Shown piece after piece: positions 1-21,600 of a stretch of 23,231 bases of DNA. Source of the stretch: a virus. The DNA is taken from positions 1 through 23,231 of IMG/VR virus record IMGVR_UViG_3300003323_000493. One strand, 5' to 3'. The position numbers and the translations under genes were made by a program. The notes beneath the pieces were generated by a model. The model did no database searches. It was not told the DNA's origin and saw only the letters and a program-made list of their open reading frames with translations. Within the stretch, counting starts at the first letter, position 1; every line of letters starts with the position of its first letter.

Positions 1-1437
1 GACTACTCTGACGGCTGCATGATCGCCCTCTACCCTCCTGCCGACGTTGCGCAGGCGCTCGCCGTAGAGGGTGGGCTGCCGGCCGACGAGATGCATGTGA
101 CCGTCGCCTACCTCGGAGAGGCTGCGGACATCGACGGCGACGTAGTCCGCCAGGTCACGGCCGAACTCGCCGAGCGGCAACCGATCCAGGCCCGGATCGC
201 CGGGCACGCTCGGTTCACGGGCGGCGACAAGGACGTCATCGTTGCCCTCGTCGACTCCGCTGACCTCGAAGACCTTCGCCGGGACACCCTCGATGTCCTC
301 CGTAAGCGCGGCATCGAGCCGCCGAGGGACCACGGTTACTGTGCCCACCTCACGATTACCTACCTCGACACGAACGAACCGGCTCCGATCGAGCGACTCG
401 ACGCCCGCGACGTCGACTTCACAGTGCTGGCCGCCGTGCACGGTGCGGACCGGACCGACAGCACGCTGGAACATCCGATCGCGGCACCGGCCCGGGAAGC
501 GTTCGCCGTGGGATGGGCGCTGTCCGGCGGCCCGATGACGGAGCGCGTGAAGGCCGCCAGCACCGCGGCCGTCCAGACCGCGATCGAGCGTGCCGACGAC
601 CCGCACATCCTCGAAGTCACCATCGACCTCGGCCGGCTTGAGGGCATGTGGGCCAAGCTGTTCGGCCGGCGTGAGGAGAAGCAGGCCGAGCACACCCGGC
701 TCGTCACCGACGCCTGGCGGCCACTCATCGACCGGGACGCCGTCGCCGACATGGTCGACCGCTTCCGCAGCAACGCCGGACTAAGCGAAGCCGCCAGGGA
801 CTTCCTCGCCGAGGCCCTCGCAGCCGCTCGGCGCATGCTCCAGGCACTCGCCGACCTCACCGGCTGGACCGCCATCCGGGCACGGCTCCGGGACGCTATC
901 GCTGCCGGGAACGCCGAAGGCATGGTCAATGCCGTCGCCATCGCAGCCGAACGCGTCGGCACGATCGGCTTGGACTGGGACCTCGCGTTCAAGGACGCCT
1001 ACGAGTCCCTCGCGCGCCTCGACGAGCTGTGGGGCAACGCGGACGGCTGGCTCGGGCGGATGGTCGACCGGGCATCCGCCGACCTCGGCCGGGCCCTTGC
1101 GCAGGCCGCTGAAGACGGTGCCACCCGCGACGAGATGATCGACGCCGTCATGGACATCCTCGACAGCGACGACGTCGAAGCGGTCGCGTTCACCGTCGAC
1201 TGGGCCATGACCACCGCCGCCGACGACGGCGCCCTACGCCTCTACCGCTCCGAGGGTGTCCAGCAGATCGACACCATCAGTGCTGGAGATGGCCGCGTCT
1301 GTCAGACGTGCCTCGACTACGAAGCTGGCAGCCCATGGTCGGCGCTTGACGTGCCCCGGCTGCCGACGCACCCCGCCTGCCGCTGCTGCTATGCCGCCGC
1401 GCCGTCCCTGGCCAGCTTTGCCAGCTGGTTCGCCTGA
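1..1437 (+). CDS. Minor head protein: 2H phosphoesterase-like domain fused to MuF-like C-terminus (5' end cut by window)
   Basis: The frame is open from base 1. The first ATG (19) has no Shine-Dalgarno sequence before it, so the gene probably begins upstream and only its 3' 479 codons are seen. Counting from that ATG, residues 25-33 (MHVTVAYLG) and 107-115 (YCAHLTITY) carry the paired HxT motifs (H26/T28, H110/T112) of the 2H phosphoesterase / 2'-5' RNA ligase superfamily. A helical middle follows. The C-terminus has a CxxC (VCQTCLDYE) and HPACRC, the pattern of Mu gpF-like minor head proteins, which join the portal inside the capsid. Position just before the protease and capsid genes fits a head-morphogenesis role. 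MuF proteins often carry variable enzymatic domains, so the 2H part may be an injected or capsid-internal activity on 2',3'-cyclic or 2'-5' linked nucleotides; that is inference. The MuF call is good; the 2H domain rests on two motifs with the usual spacing. Confidence 0.8.
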   Translation, partial: DYSDGCMIALYPPADVAQALAVEGGLPADEMHVTVAYLGEAADIDGDVVRQVTAELAERQPIQARIAGHARFTGGDKDVIVALVDSADLEDLRRDTLDVLRKRGIEPPRDHGYCAHLTITYLDTNEPAPIERLDARDVDFTVLAAVHGADRTDSTLEHPIAAPAREAFAVGWALSGGPMTERVKAASTAAVQTAIERADDPHILEVTIDLGRLEGMWAKLFGRREEKQAEHTRLVTDAWRPLIDRDAVADMVDRFRSNAGLSEAARDFLAEALAAARRMLQALADLTGWTAIRARLRDAIAAGNAEGMVNAVAIAAERVGTIGLDWDLAFKDAYESLARLDELWGNADGWLGRMVDRASADLGRALAQAAEDGATRDEMIDAVMDILDSDDVEAVAFTVDWAMTTAADDGALRLYRSEGVQQIDTISAGDGRVCQTCLDYEAGSPWSALDVPRLPTHPACRCCYAAAPSLASFASWFA

Positions 1438-1456
1438 CCTTGGAAGGGAGGCCCGC

Positions 1457-3271
1457 GTGGCCGCTCGCATTGGCACCATCACCGGTATCGCCCTCGTCCC
1501 CGGCGTCTCCCGAAACGGGCGTCTCTACACTGCCGAGGCCATCGGCCGGGCCGCGAAGCGGGCCCAGGCCCGCATCGACGAGGACGGCGACCCGCTCACG
1601 ATGCTTACGCACCATGCCGCCGACGACGACTCCACCCAGATCGTCGGCCGTCTCACCAGCGTCAGGCAACTCGAAGACGGCAGCGCCGCCTACACCGCCG
1701 ACCTCGCCGACACCGACGAAGCTCGGGACATCGCCAAGCTTGTCGACCCCAACAAGGGCCCGGCGTACCTCAGGGGCGTGTCCATCCGGGGAGCCTGGGT
1801 CGGCAAAGTCCGCCGCCAACCGGGTCCGAGCGGTGCGCAGGTCGAGACCGCCGACGACCTGGAACTCGATGGCCTCGACTTCACCCGGAAGCCCGGCGTC
1901 GTCGGGGCCCGGGTCGACAGTTTTACCCCCGAGGCGGCCAGTGCCCCGGCGGAGACGGCACCCGGCTGCCGGGTGCTCATCACCGAGTCAGTGCAGGAGG
2001 CGCTGGTGACCACCACGACCGAGGCCGACACCCCGAAGGCGGAAACGCCAGTGCCGGGTGGCGGCCCGTATGCGGACCCGGGCTACCAGGCCGACAAGAA
2101 GAAGCGGTACCCCATCGACACAAAGGCCAGGGCCAAGGCCGCCTGGAGCTACGTGAACCAGGCCGACAACGCGCGCCTGTACACGTCCGCTCAGCTGAAG
2201 CGGATCAAGCAGCGCATCACGAAGGCCCTCAAGTCCTTCGGCGTGCAGGTCGCCACTCAAGAGGGCTGGCTGATCGAGCCTGCGGCTCAGGTGACCGAGG
2301 CGCTCGCCGAGTGCTGGGACATGGATCAGCCGCAGGGCAGCCTGTATCTGTCGCTGACGAACGGGCCGACCACGGTCACCGTGTCCTCGTACCTGCTCGA
2401 CGCCCACGACCTCGACCTCGTCGGGCGTGCCGCGATGGCCGGCGCCTGCAACGCGCTGCTGCAGCTCGACCCGGACATGGACGCCGACATCGACATCCCC
2501 GGTGCCCCCGCCGAGGACGACGACGATGACGCCTCCCCGGCGACCGCAGCGGGTGCGGTGTGCCCGTGCGGTTGCGGCTGCGCGATCCCGGAGACCCCGG
2601 GGGGCTGCCCGTGCACCTGTGGCGCAGGTGACTGCGTGCACTGCATGGGCGAAGACGACGACGCGATGGAAACCGCCATCGAATCTCCCGCCCCACAGGT
2701 CGCCGAAAGCGGCACCGTCGTCGCCGCAGGCGCGACCGATGGCATCACTCAGACTTCGACGCCGGAGACGCCGGCTGTCGAGAACCCCACCCCGGAAGGA
2801 GGCCCCGCCATGGCGGAGCCCACCACCGCAGCGGAGACCGCTGCCGCCCCCGCCGCTGGTGGGGTCACCCTGACCGACGACCAGTTCTCGCAGCTCCTTG
2901 CGCGGCTCGCCCCCGCGCCTGCCGCTGCCGCCACAGCGGAGTCGGCGGCGACCGAGCCGGTCGCCGAGGCCCAGCAGGCAGCCCCGACCGTCGAGGTCGC
3001 CGAGACCGAAGACCAGCGCATCGCCCGTCTCGTCGCCGAGGGCGTCAAGGCGGCGCTGCCGCAGGCGATCCAGGAGCACGTCCAGCAGACGGGCGGCCCG
3101 GCCCGCAAGGGCATCGTCCCGCAGGTCTCCGAGAGCACCGGCACTGGCGGCAACGCGCAGGGCCTTCCGGAGGGCGCGCCCGACAAGCCGCTCCACGAGT
3201 ACACGCCGGAGGAGTGGAGCAAGTACATCGCCCCCTCCGTCACCGGAGCGATCTTCCAGGGCCGCGGTTGA
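1457..3271 (+). CDS. Prohead protease-scaffold fusion protein
   Basis: GTG start at 1457 is chosen because GGAAGGGAGG (1442-1451) sits at the right distance; the frame runs further upstream only as overlap with the previous gene. 604 aa. Residues 1-165 resemble phage capsid-maturation proteases: GVSRNGRLYT near the N-terminus, a LTHHAAD segment, and YLRGVSIRGAW followed by LDGLDFTRKPG. The protease would cut scaffold and capsid during head maturation. After a linker comes a 70-residue basic domain (KKKRYPIDTKARAKAAWSYV region, DUF6582-like), a 28-residue stretch with nine Cys (residues 369-396), then an Ala/Pro/Glu-rich, coil-forming C-terminus ending in HEYTPEEWSKYI, typical of scaffold. The gene directly precedes the major capsid gene, as expected. 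I cannot assign the catalytic triad with certainty. Two internal in-frame starts with good ribosome sites (2006, 2810) suggest shorter nested products. Confidence 0.8.
   Translation: MAARIGTITGIALVPGVSRNGRLYTAEAIGRAAKRAQARIDEDGDPLTMLTHHAADDDSTQIVGRLTSVRQLEDGSAAYTADLADTDEARDIAKLVDPNKGPAYLRGVSIRGAWVGKVRRQPGPSGAQVETADDLELDGLDFTRKPGVVGARVDSFTPEAASAPAETAPGCRVLITESVQEALVTTTTEADTPKAETPVPGGGPYADPGYQADKKKRYPIDTKARAKAAWSYVNQADNARLYTSAQLKRIKQRITKALKSFGVQVATQEGWLIEPAAQVTEALAECWDMDQPQGSLYLSLTNGPTTVTVSSYLLDAHDLDLVGRAAMAGACNALLQLDPDMDADIDIPGAPAEDDDDDASPATAAGAVCPCGCGCAIPETPGGCPCTCGAGDCVHCMGEDDDAMETAIESPAPQVAESGTVVAAGATDGITQTSTPETPAVENPTPEGGPAMAEPTTAAETAAAPAAGGVTLTDDQFSQLLARLAPAPAAAATAESAATEPVAEAQQAAPTVEVAETEDQRIARLVAEGVKAALPQAIQEHVQQTGGPARKGIVPQVSESTGTGGNAQGLPEGAPDKPLHEYTPEEWSKYIAPSVTGAIFQGRG
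1995..2008 (+). promoter_or_regulatory. Possible internal ribosome binding site and GTG start within the protease gene
   Basis: AGGAGG (1995-2000) lies five bases before an in-frame GTG (2006-2008) in the protease-scaffold gene. Translation from here would skip the protease and give a 421-aa product starting with the DUF6582-like domain and including the scaffold. The site falls exactly in the linker after the protease domain. It is weaker evidence than the 2810 site because the six bases also encode ordinary residues (QEA). Confidence 0.35.
2810..3271 (+). CDS. Nested scaffolding protein from an internal in-frame start
   Basis: An ATG at 2810 is in frame with the protease-scaffold gene and is preceded by GGAAGGAGG (2794-2802), one of the best Shine-Dalgarno matches in the window, seven bases away. 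The product would be 153 aa: MAEPTTAAE, an Ala-rich segment, a helix (TDDQFSQLLARL), another Ala/Glu-rich segment, a helix (EDQRIARLVAEGVKAAL), and a C-terminal segment with YTPEEWSKYI that could bind capsid protein. Low complexity, acidic and helical composition fits a scaffold. Phage lambda makes its scaffold Nu3 in the same way, from an in-frame start inside the protease gene C. The coding sequence itself is certain; separate initiation is inferred from the ribosome site. Confidence 0.6.
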   Translation: MAEPTTAAETAAAPAAGGVTLTDDQFSQLLARLAPAPAAAATAESAATEPVAEAQQAAPTVEVAETEDQRIARLVAEGVKAALPQAIQEHVQQTGGPARKGIVPQVSESTGTGGNAQGLPEGAPDKPLHEYTPEEWSKYIAPSVTGAIFQGRG

Positions 3272-3277
3272 GCCCCT

Positions 3278-3381
3278 GACGCTACGGCGTCCCCTGAACC
3301 ACCCCTGACCGCCAGCAGATTGCTGGTGCCGACTCGGCAGTGATGGTCGCCCAGCCCCGCTACACCCTTCGTGCGCGGGGC
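3278..3381 (+). other. Three stem-loops in the leader of the capsid gene
   Basis: The 147-base gap before the capsid gene holds three hairpins: GACGC/GCGTC (3278-3282/3287-3291), CGCCAGCA/TGCTGGTG with a GAT loop and one G-T pair (3310-3317/3321-3328), and GCCCCGC/GCGGGGC (3354-3360/3375-3381). None has a T-run after it, so they look like mRNA stability or processing elements, or a leader controlling capsid translation, rather than terminators. No convincing promoter is seen. Confidence 0.5.
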
Positions 3382-3418
3382 TTCGCCGTGTTCCCACCCA
3401 GCCAGAAGAGGCATCAGC

Positions 3419-4786
3419 ATGACAACGAACGAGCTCCGCGAGGCGCTGACCGCGTCCGGTGCATCTCCGCTCGTCCCCACGATCGTCGACCCGATGCTGC
3501 TGGAGTACCAGCGGCGCTACTCCCCGCTCGTCCGATCGATCCCCACGCGCAAGTGGGACTCGACGGTCTACTACTTCAACCAGAGGACCGCGCGCGCTGC
3601 GGGCGGCTTCGTCACCGACGGGGGCGCCCGGCCCGTCTCCAACTCCACGTACGTGCAGAACCAGTACACGATCCGCAACATGCAGGCGGTCGGCGCGGTC
3701 ACCGGCTACGCCCAGGCCGTCACCAAGGGCCTGATCGGCGACCTGAAGCAGCAGGAAGTCGAAGGCGCGATCCAGGGCCTGTACTGGGACATCGAGACCG
3801 CCATCCTGTGGGGCAACAGCGCCTCCACGGCCCTGGGCGCGTACCCGCAGTTCGACGGCCTCGACACCCTGACCTCCACGTTCTCCGGGAACAACCAGAA
3901 CGCGCTCGACATCAACGGCGCGATGACCCTGGGCACCCTGGACCGGCTCATCGACATGGTCGAGCAGCAGGCCGCGATGGGCGTCTACGACGCGCAGTGG
4001 ATGCTCGTCATGAGCTCCACCGCCGCGTCGAAGGTCTCGCAGCTCCTGCAAGCCCAGCAGCGGTTCTCGAACCAGGTCCAGGTCGCCTCCGGCCTGAACG
4101 TGCCGACCTACCGCGATGTGCCGATCATCAAGTCGTCGTTCCTGTCGGCGCGTTCGTACGGAATGGGCGCCGTCACCACGGCGACCGCCACCACCGGCGG
4201 CACCCTGGCGGCGGCCACGTACTACTACCAGGTCGTGCCGGTCATCGCCCGCCAGGGCGAGATCCTCCCGTCGGTCGAGGTGTCGCAGGCCACCACGGGC
4301 TCCACGTCGACTGTGACGCTGAGCTTCTCGACGCCGACCGGCCTCGACGGCTCCCAGCCGAACCTGTACAAGGTGTACCGGTCCACGGCCACCGGCACCG
4401 AGACCCTCCTCGGCTACGTCGACGCCTGCGTCGGCCTCGCCGCCGACGGCGTCACCCCGATCCTCACCACGAGCATCGTCGACGACGGCACCAAGCTCAC
4501 CCCGAAGAACGGCTCCACCGTCCCCGCCCAGGGGCCGGCGGCCTACGTCGGCACCAACAGTGCCGTCAAGCCCCCGGCCGCCGGGCAGGAGAACATCTAC
4601 CTGATGGCCCGCGACCAGAACTTCGTGGTGCGCCCCTACGTCCGCGAACTCAGCCCCCTCGATGTCTTTCCCACGACGGCCGGACCGGACCAGCTGCCGT
4701 TCGCGATCGCCTCGGACACCTGCCTCGCGGTACGTGCGCCGAAATACCTGGGCCGCGCCGCCCGCGTCACCACCACCCTGTCCTGA
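3419..4786 (+). CDS. Major capsid protein (HK97 fold) with Ig/FN3-like insertion
   Basis: ATG at 3419 (MTTNELREAL) is preferred over the upstream ATG at 3371, which has no ribosome site; AGAAGAGG lies at 3404-3411. 455 aa. The body (residues 1-245) has features of HK97-type coat proteins: an N-terminal helical arm, WDSTVYYFNQRTARAAGG, a long spine-helix region (GLIGDLKQQEVEGAIQGLYW), and a P-domain-like stretch ending in VPTYRDVPIIKSSFL. Residues about 250-370 are Thr/Ser/Val-rich with TYYYQVVPV and YKVYRSTATG, typical of a fibronectin III / Ig-like beta sandwich. The capsid fold then resumes: GQENIYLMARDQNFVVRPYV to the C-terminus. The insert would sit on the outer surface of each subunit. 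The preceding scaffold and following connector genes support the call. Confidence 0.9.
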   Translation: MTTNELREALTASGASPLVPTIVDPMLLEYQRRYSPLVRSIPTRKWDSTVYYFNQRTARAAGGFVTDGGARPVSNSTYVQNQYTIRNMQAVGAVTGYAQAVTKGLIGDLKQQEVEGAIQGLYWDIETAILWGNSASTALGAYPQFDGLDTLTSTFSGNNQNALDINGAMTLGTLDRLIDMVEQQAAMGVYDAQWMLVMSSTAASKVSQLLQAQQRFSNQVQVASGLNVPTYRDVPIIKSSFLSARSYGMGAVTTATATTGGTLAAATYYYQVVPVIARQGEILPSVEVSQATTGSTSTVTLSFSTPTGLDGSQPNLYKVYRSTATGTETLLGYVDACVGLAADGVTPILTTSIVDDGTKLTPKNGSTVPAQGPAAYVGTNSAVKPPAAGQENIYLMARDQNFVVRPYVRELSPLDVFPTTAGPDQLPFAIASDTCLAVRAPKYLGRAARVTTTLS

Positions 4787-4793
4787 CCCCTGT

Positions 4794-4823
4794 GGCGCGC
4801 GTCGCCGCAAAGTAGCGCGCGCC
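4794..4823 (+). other. Strong GC stem-loop after the capsid gene
   Basis: GGCGCGCG (4794-4801) pairs perfectly with CGCGCGCC (4816-4823) around a 14-base loop, 7 bases after the capsid stop. There is no U-tract, so readthrough into the next gene is likely; the hairpin may protect the 3' end of the capsid mRNA or terminate partially. Confidence 0.5.
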
Positions 4824-4850
4824 CGTCCCCCCTTGTGAGGAGTGGAGAGC

Positions 4851-5162
4851 ATGGCGCTCATCCGCAAGCAACAGGCCGGAAGCGACAGCTTCGGCCACAC
4901 CTGGCCCGAGGACGGCGCCACCGTCGAGATCGACGACCCCGAGCAGATCGCCTCGCTCATGGCGATCCCCGACGCCGGATTCAGCGAGGTCACCCCGACC
5001 AGCGACGATGGTGCCGACAACGACCCGCCGCAGGACCCGGACGCGAAGAAGGAGATCTCCGAGATCGATCCCGACGCGGTCGACGCGGAACCGGACGCCA
5101 AGGCGCCGGCGAAGAAGACCGCCGCTCGCAAGACCGCGGCCAGCCAGCCCGTCCAGGAGTAG
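4851..5162 (+). CDS. Small acidic/lysine-tailed protein of the head module, unknown function
   Basis: ATG at 4851 follows GTGAGGAG (about 4835-4842); a GTG in the same frame at 4842 overlaps that site and is unlikely. 103 aa. Residues 1-45 look folded (MALIRKQQAG, GHTWPEDGATVEIDDP). The rest is an acidic, probably disordered stretch (SDDGADNDPPQDPD) ending in a Lys/Ala-rich tail (KAPAKKTAARKTAAS). I do not recognise a family. Between the coat and connector genes, phages often carry small decoration or head-associated proteins. The Lys-rich tail is reminiscent of DNA- or coat-binding tails. Its first residues (LIRKQ) resemble the start of the 86-aa protein at 6418 (LIRQR), which has the same folded-acidic-basic layout. 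Confidence 0.75.
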   Translation: MALIRKQQAGSDSFGHTWPEDGATVEIDDPEQIASLMAIPDAGFSEVTPTSDDGADNDPPQDPDAKKEISEIDPDAVDAEPDAKAPAKKTAARKTAASQPVQE

Positions 5163-5165
5163 CCC

Positions 5166-5834
5166 ATGGCCGCGGATGCCCCCGTCCCGCTCGCTACCAG
5201 CGCGGACATGCAGGAGGGACAGTTCGCGGACCTGGTGCGTGACTATAGTTCTGCTGCCCTCGATCAGATGATGATCGACGCCACGCGTGTCTGCGAGGGC
5301 ATCGCCGGACGCAGACTCGCCCCGTTCACCGGGGTCCCGGAGACGCACCGGGCCACGGGCATTGACCCGGACGAGTACACGGACTCGACGAACCTGCCGA
5401 TGGACATCCTCGGCTCCCTGGGCCGTTCCTACGCGAACGCGCTCGGCGCGGGCGACCAGGTGCGGCACGTGTGGTTGAACGAGTTCGCGCCCCGCTACCC
5501 GGAGATGTGGACCTACTCCAACCTGCAGATCACGATCCTCCGCTCGTATGGCGGGTCGCAGGTCGTGAACACGGCGAGCATCATCGGCGCCGAACCGGAC
5601 TCCGGGCACATCTGGTTCACGCTCGGCACGTTCCTGCCGCTCGGCTCGCTGATACGGGCCGTGTACGACGGCGGCTACACCACCGTCCCGGCCGACCTTT
5701 CCCGGGCGTGCAAGCTGAAGGCCGCGGTCCTGGCGCTCGGTGAGATCGATCCGGGCGGAACCCAGTTCGGCCACGACCCGGCCGCGTTGAGCAAGCAAGC
5801 CGACGACATCCTGTGCCGCTACCAGCCCACCTGA
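5166..5834 (+). CDS. Head-tail connector (HK97 gp6 / Phage_connect-like)
   Basis: ATG at 5166 lies 3 bases after the previous stop, with AGGAG at 5155-5159. 222 aa. The N-terminus (residues 12-50) is an alpha-helical segment (FADLVRDYSSAALDQMMIDATRVCEGIAGR), the usual opening of head-tail adaptor proteins, where a Cys-containing helix precedes the 'GR' turn. A beta-rich middle follows (IRAVYDGGYTTVP), then a C-terminal helix (ADLSRACKLKAAVLALGEI). 'YxGGY..vP.dl..A' near the C-terminus is characteristic of gp6-like connectors that form a ring under the portal. It is longer than HK97 gp6 (about 110 aa) because of a central insertion at residues 65-150. Position after the coat gene agrees. Confidence 0.7.
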   Translation: MAADAPVPLATSADMQEGQFADLVRDYSSAALDQMMIDATRVCEGIAGRRLAPFTGVPETHRATGIDPDEYTDSTNLPMDILGSLGRSYANALGAGDQVRHVWLNEFAPRYPEMWTYSNLQITILRSYGGSQVVNTASIIGAEPDSGHIWFTLGTFLPLGSLIRAVYDGGYTTVPADLSRACKLKAAVLALGEIDPGGTQFGHDPAALSKQADDILCRYQPT

Positions 5835-16947: not shown

Positions 16948-18063
16948 GTGCCCGCACGTATCCGTGCTGTTCTGGCCGCGCTCGCCCTCACTCTCGCCGC
17001 GCTCTTTGGGGGTGCCGCGCCGGCGGCAGCCGATCCTCCGCCGGACGGTCCGGTCCTCATTGAGGGCGTCGACCTGCACGACACGACGATCCGCAAGTTC
17101 GGCGACACGTACTACATGTACGGGTCCCGGTATGCGTGCGGCTTCCAGTGGGGGGTCTCGGGGACCCCGTGGTGCGGGTTCGGTGTCTCCACCGCAACTT
17201 CCCTGGGCGGCCCGTGGTCGGCGCCGACCCTGCTGTTCCCGACGGCCTCCACCGATCCGTCGACGGGCCGGACGTGGGCCGCGACCTGCGGCGGCACGGG
17301 GCGCGGGTGCTTCAACCCTCGCATGATCCAGCGCTCGGGCTGGGGCTATGACGATGGGGTGTTCATCCTGTGGTTCAACGCCCCGCGTCACACGGATGAT
17401 GGGGCGGCGAATGCCTACAACGTGATGGGCTGCAACGGGCCTGCGGGTCCGTGCGGTCCGACGGCTGGCGCCCCGTCCGGCTCGTACAACAAGCCAGCCT
17501 TGGATCACTGTCCCGGCAACGGCGACTTCGGGATGATCGAGTCAGGGCAGGGCGGCCGTCCGGCGATCGTGTGCACGGAACCGGGCCGGGCGGGCCTGGA
17601 CATCCAGGACCTCAACTGGTCGGGGTCGGGTGGGAACTCTGGCGTGGGCGTGATCCACGTCGCGGGCGTGACGCTCGCGGAGGGGCCGGGCGGCTGGTGG
17701 GATGAGGCGACGCAGCGGTACGTGCTCACCTACTCGGATCAGGGCTGCGGCTACTGCGCCGGGACCCCGGCCGGCTACGCCACCTCGCCCGGCCTGTACT
17801 CCGGGTGGACCGCACCCGGCAACATCGGCTGGGGCGCTCCGGACTTCGGCCGCCGCGACTTCAGCTCCGCGTCCTGCGGCGGCCAGCCCCGCACCGTGAC
17901 TGTCCTCGACGGGCAGCCCTGGCAGGTCATCGACCTGTGGGTCGGCCAGCGCAACGAGGCCTCTGCGGACACGCTCCTCGTCCCCCTCAACTACCAGCCC
18001 ACCAGTGGCACGCCCGGAGACGGGCGCCCCTGGGTCCCCCCGCTCAGCCTCACCTGCACCTGA
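16948..18063 (+). CDS. Secreted GH43-like (five-bladed propeller) protein
   Basis: GTG at 16948 with the hairpin-enclosed AAAGGAGGT. 371 aa. Residues 1-28 are a clear Sec signal peptide: basic start (MPARIRA), a Leu/Ala core, and cleavage after APAAA. The mature part begins [20 protein letters not shown] (residues 41-60), the first-blade pattern of GH43/GH117-type glycoside hydrolases, where D45 would be the catalytic base. Later blades show [20 protein letters not shown] and [10 protein letters not shown]. Twelve Cys, an even number, suit a disulfide-bonded exported protein. Members act on arabinan or xylan type glycans; the acid residue (Glu) and substrate cannot be assigned by eye. A signal peptide is odd for a virion protein: it may be a secreted glycanase that aids lysis or release, or a host-altering cargo gene. 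Ordinary late-gene codon use. Confidence 0.7.
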
Positions 18064-18085
18064 ACAACCTGCCCCAGGAGGCCAC

Positions 18086-18889
18086 TTGTACACGCACCGC
18101 TACGACCCGGCCGACCCGAGGCTGGGCCGGCACGTGGAGCACGACCCGCGGTCCCTGCGCTTCGCGTACGGCGTCCTGCCCAAGTCGGCGATCAAGTCTG
18201 TGGACTGGATCAGGCGCGCGCCTATTTTCGACCAGGGCGACCTGGGCAGCTGCACCGGCAACGCCGCGGCGGGTCTCGTCGGCACCGACTGCCTGGCCCG
18301 CACCGGGCTGACCTCCGTCGAGGTCTCCGGCAACTTGCTCCCGGTCAACGAGGCGCTCGCCGTGCAGCTGTACGGGCTAGCGACGCAACTCGACAGCATC
18401 CCCGGTACCTACCCGCCCGACGACACCGGCTCGAGCGGCCTCGGCGCCGCCAAAGCCCTCGTCAGGCTGGGGCTGGCCACCTCCTACAGCCACGCGTTCA
18501 GCGTGGCGGCCCTCACGAGCGCGCTCCAGTGCGGCCCGGTCATGGTCGGCACCGTGTGGCTGGAGTCGATGTTCGACGCAGGCAGCAACGGCTTGGTCGT
18601 CGTCGACCGTCACAGCCAGGTCGCCGGCGGCCACGAGTACGTCATCTCCGCCTACGACGCCAGCCACTGCGCCTACCGCATCGACAACTCTTGGGGCGAG
18701 TCCTGGGGAGTCGGCGGATCCGCGTGGCTCGCCGAGGCCGATCTGCAGTGGCTTCTCTCCCAGCACGGCGACGTCACCGTTCCCGCCTGGGCCGTCGCAC
18801 CCGCCCCCGACCCCACCCCAGCCCCGGCCGTCACCGCCGGAGAACTCGCCGACCAGATCCGGGCCGTGCTCACCAAGAACGGAGTCTGA
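18086..18889 (+). CDS. Papain-like (C1) cysteine peptidase
   Basis: TTG at 18086 ([11 protein letters not shown]) follows CCAGGAGG; the longer ATG-started frame (18005) overlaps the previous gene and lacks a ribosome site. 267 aa. The catalytic set is visible: Q50 ([13 protein letters not shown]) for the oxyanion hole, C56 nucleophile, H183 in [12 protein letters not shown]201 in [11 protein letters not shown]. No propeptide of the eukaryotic kind and no signal peptide are present. The last 50 residues are a Pro/Ala linker ([17 protein letters not shown]) and a short helix, perhaps for docking to another protein. Phage-borne C1 peptidases of this type lie near tail-tip or lysis genes; it could be virion-bound and cut surface proteins, or cut wall cross-bridges with the next gene's amidase. 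Substrate unknown. Confidence 0.8.
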
Positions 18890-20584: not shown

Positions 20585-20938
20585 GTGGCTGAAGGTGAGC
20601 CGTCGAACGGCGAACTCGGGCGGCTCATTGGCGCGCTTCAGACGCGGTTGGACTCTCGGTTCGGGGAGTTGAACGCGCGCCTCGACAAGGTCGTGTCGCT
20701 GGACGTGTACACGATCCAGACCACTCATGTTGAGCAGCGGCTCGCCCAGCTTCAGGCGGAGATCCAGCGTTGCTCGGATGCGGGCGCCGCGTTGGAGGAC
20801 CAGTTCGAGCAGTACCAGCGTGACGAGGCGAAACGCCGGGAGGTCGAACGCCAGCAGCGCCTGTATTCGGCGATCATCCCGGTGTTGATCGCGGTGGTGT
20901 CGAGCGCGATCGCGATCTGGGCGGTGGTTGCGAAATGA
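20585..20938 (+). CDS. Tail-anchored coiled-coil membrane protein of the lysis cassette
   Basis: GTG at 20585 follows GAGGGGG (20574-20580); the ATG-started extension to 20531 overlaps the holin gene. 117 aa. Residues 10-90 are strongly helical with heptads ([35 protein letters not shown]) and a charged stretch ([14 protein letters not shown]). Residues 92-115 are a single C-terminal membrane helix ([20 protein letters not shown]). With this topology the coiled coil would stay in the cytoplasm. Possible roles are second holin, antiholin or partner of the collagen-like protein; none can be proved from sequence. It overlaps the next gene by ATGA. Confidence 0.75.
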
Positions 20939-21600
20939 GTGCTGCTCGGAAACGTCGTCGTTGGGGTTGGCCGCGGGCGGAGTGGGTCGGCGTGGGGACC
21001 GCCGTGCTCGCGCTCGGGTTGATGGCGCTGCTGGCCGTGATGGTCGTGGATCAGGCGCGCGAGCTACGGGTGGAGCGGCAGGCGCGTGATGCGCTCGCCC
21101 GTCAGGTGGAGGCGTTGGGTGAGACTCCGGTGGCGGGGCCGCCGGGGAGTCGCGGGGAGCCGGGCCGGTCGGTGACCGGACCACCAGGACCCGCAGGGGC
21201 CACGGGGCCGCCTGGCGCACAGGGCGATCCGGGTGCGGCTGGCCCGTCGGGTCCTCCGGGTCCGTCGGGTGCGGCCGGCCGGGACGGCAACGCGGGCACG
21301 GACGGGACCGCGGGCTCGGCGGGTGTGCCCGGGGCCGTCGGCGCTTCGGGTCCGCCGGGTCCGGCCGGTGAACAGGGCCCGCAGGGTGCGCCCGGTCCGG
21401 CAGGTCCTCAAGGTCCGGCTGGCCCGGCTGGTGACCGGGGTCCGGCGGGGCCTACGTGTCCGGACGGGTACTCGCTCCAGGCCCCGTCGTACGATCCGGA
21501 CGCGCTGGTGTGCCGCCGGGATGCGGCCCCGCCGCCGTCGCCTGATCCGTCGGACGGACGCCCGCAGGTGGCCCTCGATCCCCTCCGCCGCCAGTACTGA
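20935..21600 (+). CDS. Membrane-anchored collagen-like protein
   Basis: ATG at 20935 overlaps the previous stop. 221 aa. A very basic N-terminus (ARKRRRWGW) and one membrane helix (residues 17-38) predict that the rest lies outside the cell. A short coiled coil ([19 protein letters not shown]) could start trimer formation. It is followed by 4 Gly-X-Y triplets, a break (SVT), then 31 unbroken triplets rich in GPP, GPA and charged X-Y pairs. The C-terminus is a small domain with two Cys ([17 protein letters not shown]) and a Pro-rich end. At 0.29 nm per residue the unbroken helix is about 27 nm, close to a Gram-positive wall. The GC-rich repeats are coding, not a DNA artefact. Function unknown; spanin-like or wall-spanning role is speculation. 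A virion fibre is less likely because of the membrane helix. Confidence 0.8.

Follow-up and report, generated by a model that had tools for sequence, protein, structure and literature searches.

A probable three-tier nested head-assembly gene in a virus related to Streptomyces prophages

The window analysed here is a complete 23,231-base virus record of IMG/VR (IMGVR_UViG_3300003323_000493), whose relatives are Streptomyces prophages and metagenomic viral contigs. Directly upstream of its major capsid gene lies a single gene in which a protease, a linker with a DUF6582 domain and a predicted scaffold follow one another (Table 1). This is probably a three-tier, 3'-coterminal, in-frame nested head-assembly gene read by internal initiation, a view held with reasonable confidence on comparative sequence evidence. 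The two candidate internal starts are a GTG at 2006-2008 (codon 184, the middle site) and an ATG at 2810-2812 (the scaffold site), both in frame with the stop codon at 3269-3271. An earlier sequence-only reading had paired each with a Shine-Dalgarno (SD) sequence, and both pairs stand in the sequence exactly as it gave them. Among the 18 in-frame ATG, GTG and TTG codons of the open reading frame (ORF), the strongest SD duplex belongs to 2810 (-15.3) and the second strongest to 2006 (-10.3), compared with a median over positions of -3.1 and with -15.9 at the primary start. A longer ORF from 1256 was rejected as a merely mechanical open frame, since both the SD and the starts of orthologues indicate 1457 as the start of the gene.

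Conservation of the scaffold start

Orthologues were collected as ORFs matching both a protease profile and a middle-region profile. Of 106 such ORFs, 46 were dropped on shared 15-mers (at most 60%), leaving 60 non-redundant sequences. The protease and middle region form one ORF in all 60; among the matches listed, it generally extends into the scaffold region if the locus reaches its end, and the capsid gene comes next in loci covering that position. A blind scan took in the 618 alignment columns filled in at least 20 orthologues and recorded in-frame ATG, GTG or TTG codons with an anti-SD duplex at least as strong as -8.5, a threshold chosen post hoc after duplex energies had been inspected; the anti-SD tail sequence was entered by hand. 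The scaffold site ranks first, with start and SD in 52/60 orthologues, and the middle site second (44/60). The next column reaches 5/59 and adjoins the scaffold site. The same scan of the capsid gene, used as a control, gives a maximum of 3/49 in any of 451 columns.

Five rows are out of register by one codon at the scaffold site; allowing for this raises the count there to 57/60. Rows L024, L084 and L092 were reassigned by hand to candidate starts picked at other positions in the linker (SD -8.8, -8.8 and -6.8, respectively). In 300 synonymous-codon shuffles within each gene, the scaffold site shows a mean of 28.9 and a maximum of 37, against the 57 observed. The residue in these 57 orthologues is Met (ATG) in 39 and Val in 18, and the Val codon is GTG every time; in these ORFs GTG accounts for 33% of Val codons (797 of 2416). 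On a tree of 58 of the 60 orthologues (two fragments were too short to include), built without this site for the counting of codon changes there, the codon switches between ATG and GTG at least 8 times, with no replacement by another Val codon. The peptide preceding the start is variable (EGG, EKE, ETE, EEE, LEV, RRES) while the SD is kept. Synonymous conservation is highest at residue 455, just past the start (z 4.67). Within a clade of 44 rows, Glu 454 (codon 3 of the scaffold ORF) and Glu 181, which lies in the middle SD, are the sole change-free columns among 16 conserved Glu.

Three further scans returned 21 loci, consisting of 12 new non-redundant orthologues, 7 redundant ones and 2 without the protease region. 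The 12 are not a random sample, because they were obtained by distant queries. The scaffold start is present in 11 of them, with the best in-frame SD in 9 (one tie) and the second best in 2. One locus, L131, provides a natural split: its scaffold is encoded on its own, in a different frame, by an ORF with the same SD-GTG (-11.6), and its close relative L130 has a fused gene with the same nested GTG. The protease ORF of L131 (1812-3871) ends in an extension without a match in the other fetched loci. A sequencing frameshift is an unlikely cause of the split, because the extension, the spacer and the scaffold ORF each show coding GC content at third codon positions (0.90-0.95) in their own frames. 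Conservation of this start, which the earlier reading had named as a check, is thus seen in 11 of the 12 further orthologues and in the split locus.

Taken with these comparisons, an internal scaffold start at 2810 appears nearly certain. The same reading had the gene divided at 2810 exactly where low-complexity sequence begins, but Ala/Pro/Glu low-complexity sequence already starts upstream of this position.

The middle start and competing explanations

At the middle site, the 44 orthologues with start and SD compare with a mean of 9.0 and a maximum of 18 in the 300 shuffles. Val occupies this position in 52 orthologues and is encoded by GTG in 48 of them, the top GTG share among 40 Val columns. 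In the 44-row clade there are no codon changes at GTG 2006, whereas the other 12 conserved Val columns have at least 6 apiece, and Glu 181 is an invariant GAG. Residue 183 is third among the listed peaks of synonymous conservation (z 2.25). In L136 the GTG is replaced by ATG, which changes the residue and keeps a start codon. Across the 60 orthologues, shuffles and codon changes indicate conservation of the SD beyond codon constraint at both sites. The sequence-only reading had named the lack of such conservation as refuting its idea, and its interpretation is supported. An explanation of either site entirely by chance or by codon constraint was rejected.

A middle start at 2006 is probable, if clade-limited, on this comparative evidence. 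The sequence-only reading had offered it with a 'perhaps'; support is stronger than that, but the start is largely confined to one clade, and not without exceptions, because only 5/12 of the further orthologues keep a start with GGAGG (4 GTG, 1 ATG).

The most serious alternative, though an unlikely one, is that 2810 alone is used, and that the region of 2006 is conserved as a release peptide (I-x-E-S ... V) whose SD-like part reflects a pause site or codon bias. The losses at the middle site weigh on this side and against three products: GTG 2006 is absent from 12 of 14 rows of a sister group, GTA stands there in L128 and L135, and the remaining five further orthologues have GTC, GTT or ATC. 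The peptide I-x-E-S/A is kept in 59/60 orthologues, the sister group without the GTG included. However, constraint on a peptide leaves unexplained the 48 GTG among 52 Val codons, the absence of codon changes in 44 rows, the invariant GAG with its fixed spacing of 5, and the exchange of GTG for ATG in L136.

Several further observations weigh against internal initiation at two sites. L024, L096, L102 and L043 carry GTG at the middle site with a weak SD. L024, L084 and L092 are unaligned at the scaffold site, and the SD of L092 is weak. In L131 the scaffold could also start at GTG 3284 (-8.5), directly after the protease stop. RNA folding gives mild support to initiation, the internal sites averaging -12.7 and -11.9 kcal/mol versus -16.0 kcal/mol for genes, but the window mRNA at 2810 is folded about as much as the gene average, not less. 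Finally, Leptospira phage LE3, which has the same gene order, lacks an outstanding internal SD (best -7.9).

It is very improbable that internal initiation is absent and that free scaffold arises only through proteolysis of the fusion, the SD-like sequence being incidental to Glu/Gly/Lys-rich linkers. Candidate L/I-X-E cleavage sites are present, and purine-rich codons do yield SD-like motifs, the shuffles still giving 28.9/60 at the scaffold site. The observed count nevertheless exceeds that in all 300 shuffles, the residue is restricted to Met or Val with Val always GTG, codon constraint extends downstream of the start, and the scaffold of L131 is a separate ORF.

Equally hard to credit is a herpesvirus-like origin of the nested products from internal promoters and separate transcripts, for which there is precedent in the in-frame overlap of UL26.5 with UL26 (in the available part of PMC4498786) and in a paper whose title describes four 3'-coterminal cytomegalovirus (CMV) transcripts: a scan limited to sigma-70-like promoters found none in window 1-5200, and constraint falls on the SD and start codon, elements that separate transcripts would need as well.

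Protease, cleavage motifs and neighbouring features

The AlphaFold 2 (AF2) model of residues 1-364 is confident for about residues 1-160. It matches T4 gp21 (5jbl_A) with Z 12.3 and a root-mean-square deviation of 2.9 over 133 aligned residues, and herpesvirus proteases with Z 11.6 (1vzv) and Z 11.0 (4v07), while unrelated rows score 5.5 or less. In this model, the protease domain has the T4 gp21/herpesvirus assemblin fold. H53 and S109 are invariant in 54 rows and would form the catalytic pair. Searched against PDB sequences, the full profile found just two weak matches (E 0.31 and 0.58). Codon 184 falls in a low-confidence linker (model residues 163-196); the start at 2006, which the sequence-only reading had put at the end of the protease domain, lies just past that domain and not inside it.

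T4 gp21 is described in the accessible part of PMC9026906 as cleaving after L/I-X-E. Motifs of this kind occur at three places. The first, I-T-E-S, is a candidate release site. The second, L-P-E-[GSD], sits 34-41 residues from the C-terminus in the 22 orthologues that carry it. The third is in the capsid protein, where L-R-E-A forms residues 6-9 (window 3434-3445) and [LI]xEA is found near the N-terminus in 47 of 48 distinct major capsid proteins, possibly as a T4-type cleavage site. Cleavage at these motifs is presumed from their sequence and position.

If the gene is read from all three starts, initiation at GTG 1457 would give a protease-linker-scaffold fusion, a minor product that brings the protease into the procapsid. 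Initiation at ATG 2810 would supply the bulk of free scaffold, and in this phage's clade initiation at GTG 2006 would add a linker (DUF6582)-scaffold form without protease. The common C-terminus would allow fusion and scaffold to co-assemble inside the procapsid. The protease might then free itself by cutting at ITE/S, six codons before GTG 2006, release the scaffold from a putative capsid-binding tail by cutting at LPE/G, and perhaps cut the capsid protein at LRE/A. Because the middle start is six codons past the release site, the linker-scaffold protein would be reachable both by initiation and by cleavage. If true, this dual route would set stoichiometry before maturation begins.

The model of the scaffold ORF has helices at 23-33, 67-94 and 133-149, the rest being mostly of low confidence (mean predicted local distance difference test score 69). 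A homology search with this ORF found no known scaffold, and its scaffold role is putative.

Table 1. Features of the nested gene and its surroundings (window coordinates)
Feature	Position	Strand	Details
Primary-start SD	1442..1451	+	GGAAGGGAGG; duplex -15.9
Full protease-linker-scaffold gene	1457..3271	+	GTG start, 604 aa; 60 non-redundant orthologues
Protease domain, residues 1-160	1457..1936	+	T4 gp21/assemblin-type model; phrog_207 head maturation protease, E 2e-4
I-T-E-S, candidate self-cleavage (release) site	1979..1990	+	L/I-X-E pattern; [ILFM]xE[SAG] in 59/60 orthologues
Middle internal start SD	1995..2000	+	AGGAGG; GGAGG, spacing 5, in 44/48 orthologues with GTG here
Nested ORF 2, from GTG 2006	2006..3271	+	linker, DUF6582, middle domain and scaffold; 421 aa
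DUF6582 domain (PF20223)	2045..2254	+	E 2.9e-13
Cys-rich stretch, middle region	2561..2644	+	CPCGCGC..CPCTC..CVHC; present in some orthologues, absent in others
Scaffold-start SD	2794..2802	+	GGAAGGAGG; strongest SD of internal in-frame starts in 44/60 orthologues
Nested ORF 3, from ATG 2810	2810..3271	+	predicted scaffold, 153 aa
L-P-E-G, candidate maturation cleavage site	3164..3175	+	before C-terminal helix; L-P-E-[GSD] in 22/60 orthologues
Major capsid protein (SU10_MCP), next gene	3419..4786	+	Pfam E 4.1e-8, 33.5 bits vs gathering score 24.1

A search of 50,697 phage records at E 1e-5 yielded no relative of the protease, and the capsid protein matches only Leptospira phages LE3 and LE4 in these records. 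Since no close relative is found there at the thresholds used, the head module is uncharacterised. In LE3 (L115, 3265-4911) the gene directly upstream of the related capsid gene is annotated as hypothetical and resembles a protease with a charged tail, which suggests that it shares the same layout. A search of 101 genomes of one genus gave one match, the centre genome itself, and no other. No structured RNA was matched in Rfam.

Elsewhere in the window, the gene at 1-1437 encodes a minor-head-type protein that over its first ~140 residues is similar to 2H phosphoesterases (2_5_RNA_ligase2, E 4.8e-12), with a weak match to the anti-CBASS protein Acb1 (E 0.0027); the product is possibly a virion-borne 2H enzyme. 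A late gene (18005-18889) contains a papain-like C1 peptidase domain (E 5e-5), and the gene at 20935-21600 encodes a collagen-like protein with Gly-Pro-Pro repeats.

Comparison with known systems

Nested protease/scaffold genes are a known kind (lambda C/Nu3, Mu), from which this gene differs in having, next to its predicted release site, another conserved internal start. Shaw and Murialdo reportedly described in 1980 the in-frame scaffold gene Nu3 within the 3' end of the lambda protease gene C. The layout here is alike, a protease gene whose 3' end holds an in-frame scaffold gene and which shortly precedes the head genes, and to that extent the likeness to lambda drawn by the sequence-only reading holds. 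However, the lambda protease is of another type, whereas the protease model here matches T4 gp21 and assemblin; the herpesvirus genes UL26/UL26.5 are therefore the closer protease parallel. A DUF6582 region also lies between protease and scaffold here, unlike in lambda, and we know of no middle start in C/Nu3.

Nested scaffold starts are known in lambda and Mu and have been proposed for gene 27 of PaMx73, where the inner start is a Val codon behind an SD (PMC4378225, as far as its accessible text goes). For the Mu protease/scaffold and PaMx73 gene 27, that text mentions one internal start, compared with two sites here, and the PaMx73 proposal as given there comes from a single genome, compared with dozens of orthologues. 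T4 gp21 is the best fold match, and L/I-X-E motifs stand at the expected places in the window; the T4 scaffold gp22 is, however, a protein separate from the protease (PMC9026906, in the part available), whereas here the two are fused, with proposed nested starts. No published account of a three-tier arrangement in such phages was found among open-licence papers, a literature search found no paper on DUF6582, and the accessible portion of the Samy prophage paper contains no scaffold or protease data.

With ordinary annotation, one or two head structural proteins of these prophages would go unnoticed, and the presence of the prophages in Streptomyces strains, among them Streptomyces aureus NRRL B-1941 (L026) and S. 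xanthochromogenes JCM 4612 (L028), makes the head module testable. The question bears on the way in which protease:scaffold ratios are set in tailed phages and herpesviruses. As in UL26/UL26.5 and the nested CMV family, an assemblin-fold protease is fused to the scaffold, with a 3'-coterminal scaffold-only product proposed; the likeness is of fold, not of sequence. The candidate sites ITE/S and LPE/G resemble the herpesvirus R-site and M-site, as these are described in the accessible part of PMC4498786, although cleavage here is predicted from the motifs. According to the same excerpt, the free scaffold of pseudorabies virus starts 21 aa from the R-site, compared with the six codons between ITE/S and GTG 2006. 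The herpesvirus products come from separate transcripts, whereas SD-led internal initiation is proposed here. On balance, and with some caution, the gene seems to be a bacterial-virus counterpart of the CMV nested assembly family, giving three products from one gene via translation initiation alone. A second internal start that is conserved next to the predicted release site would then form a clear phage parallel to the layered assembly genes of herpesviruses.
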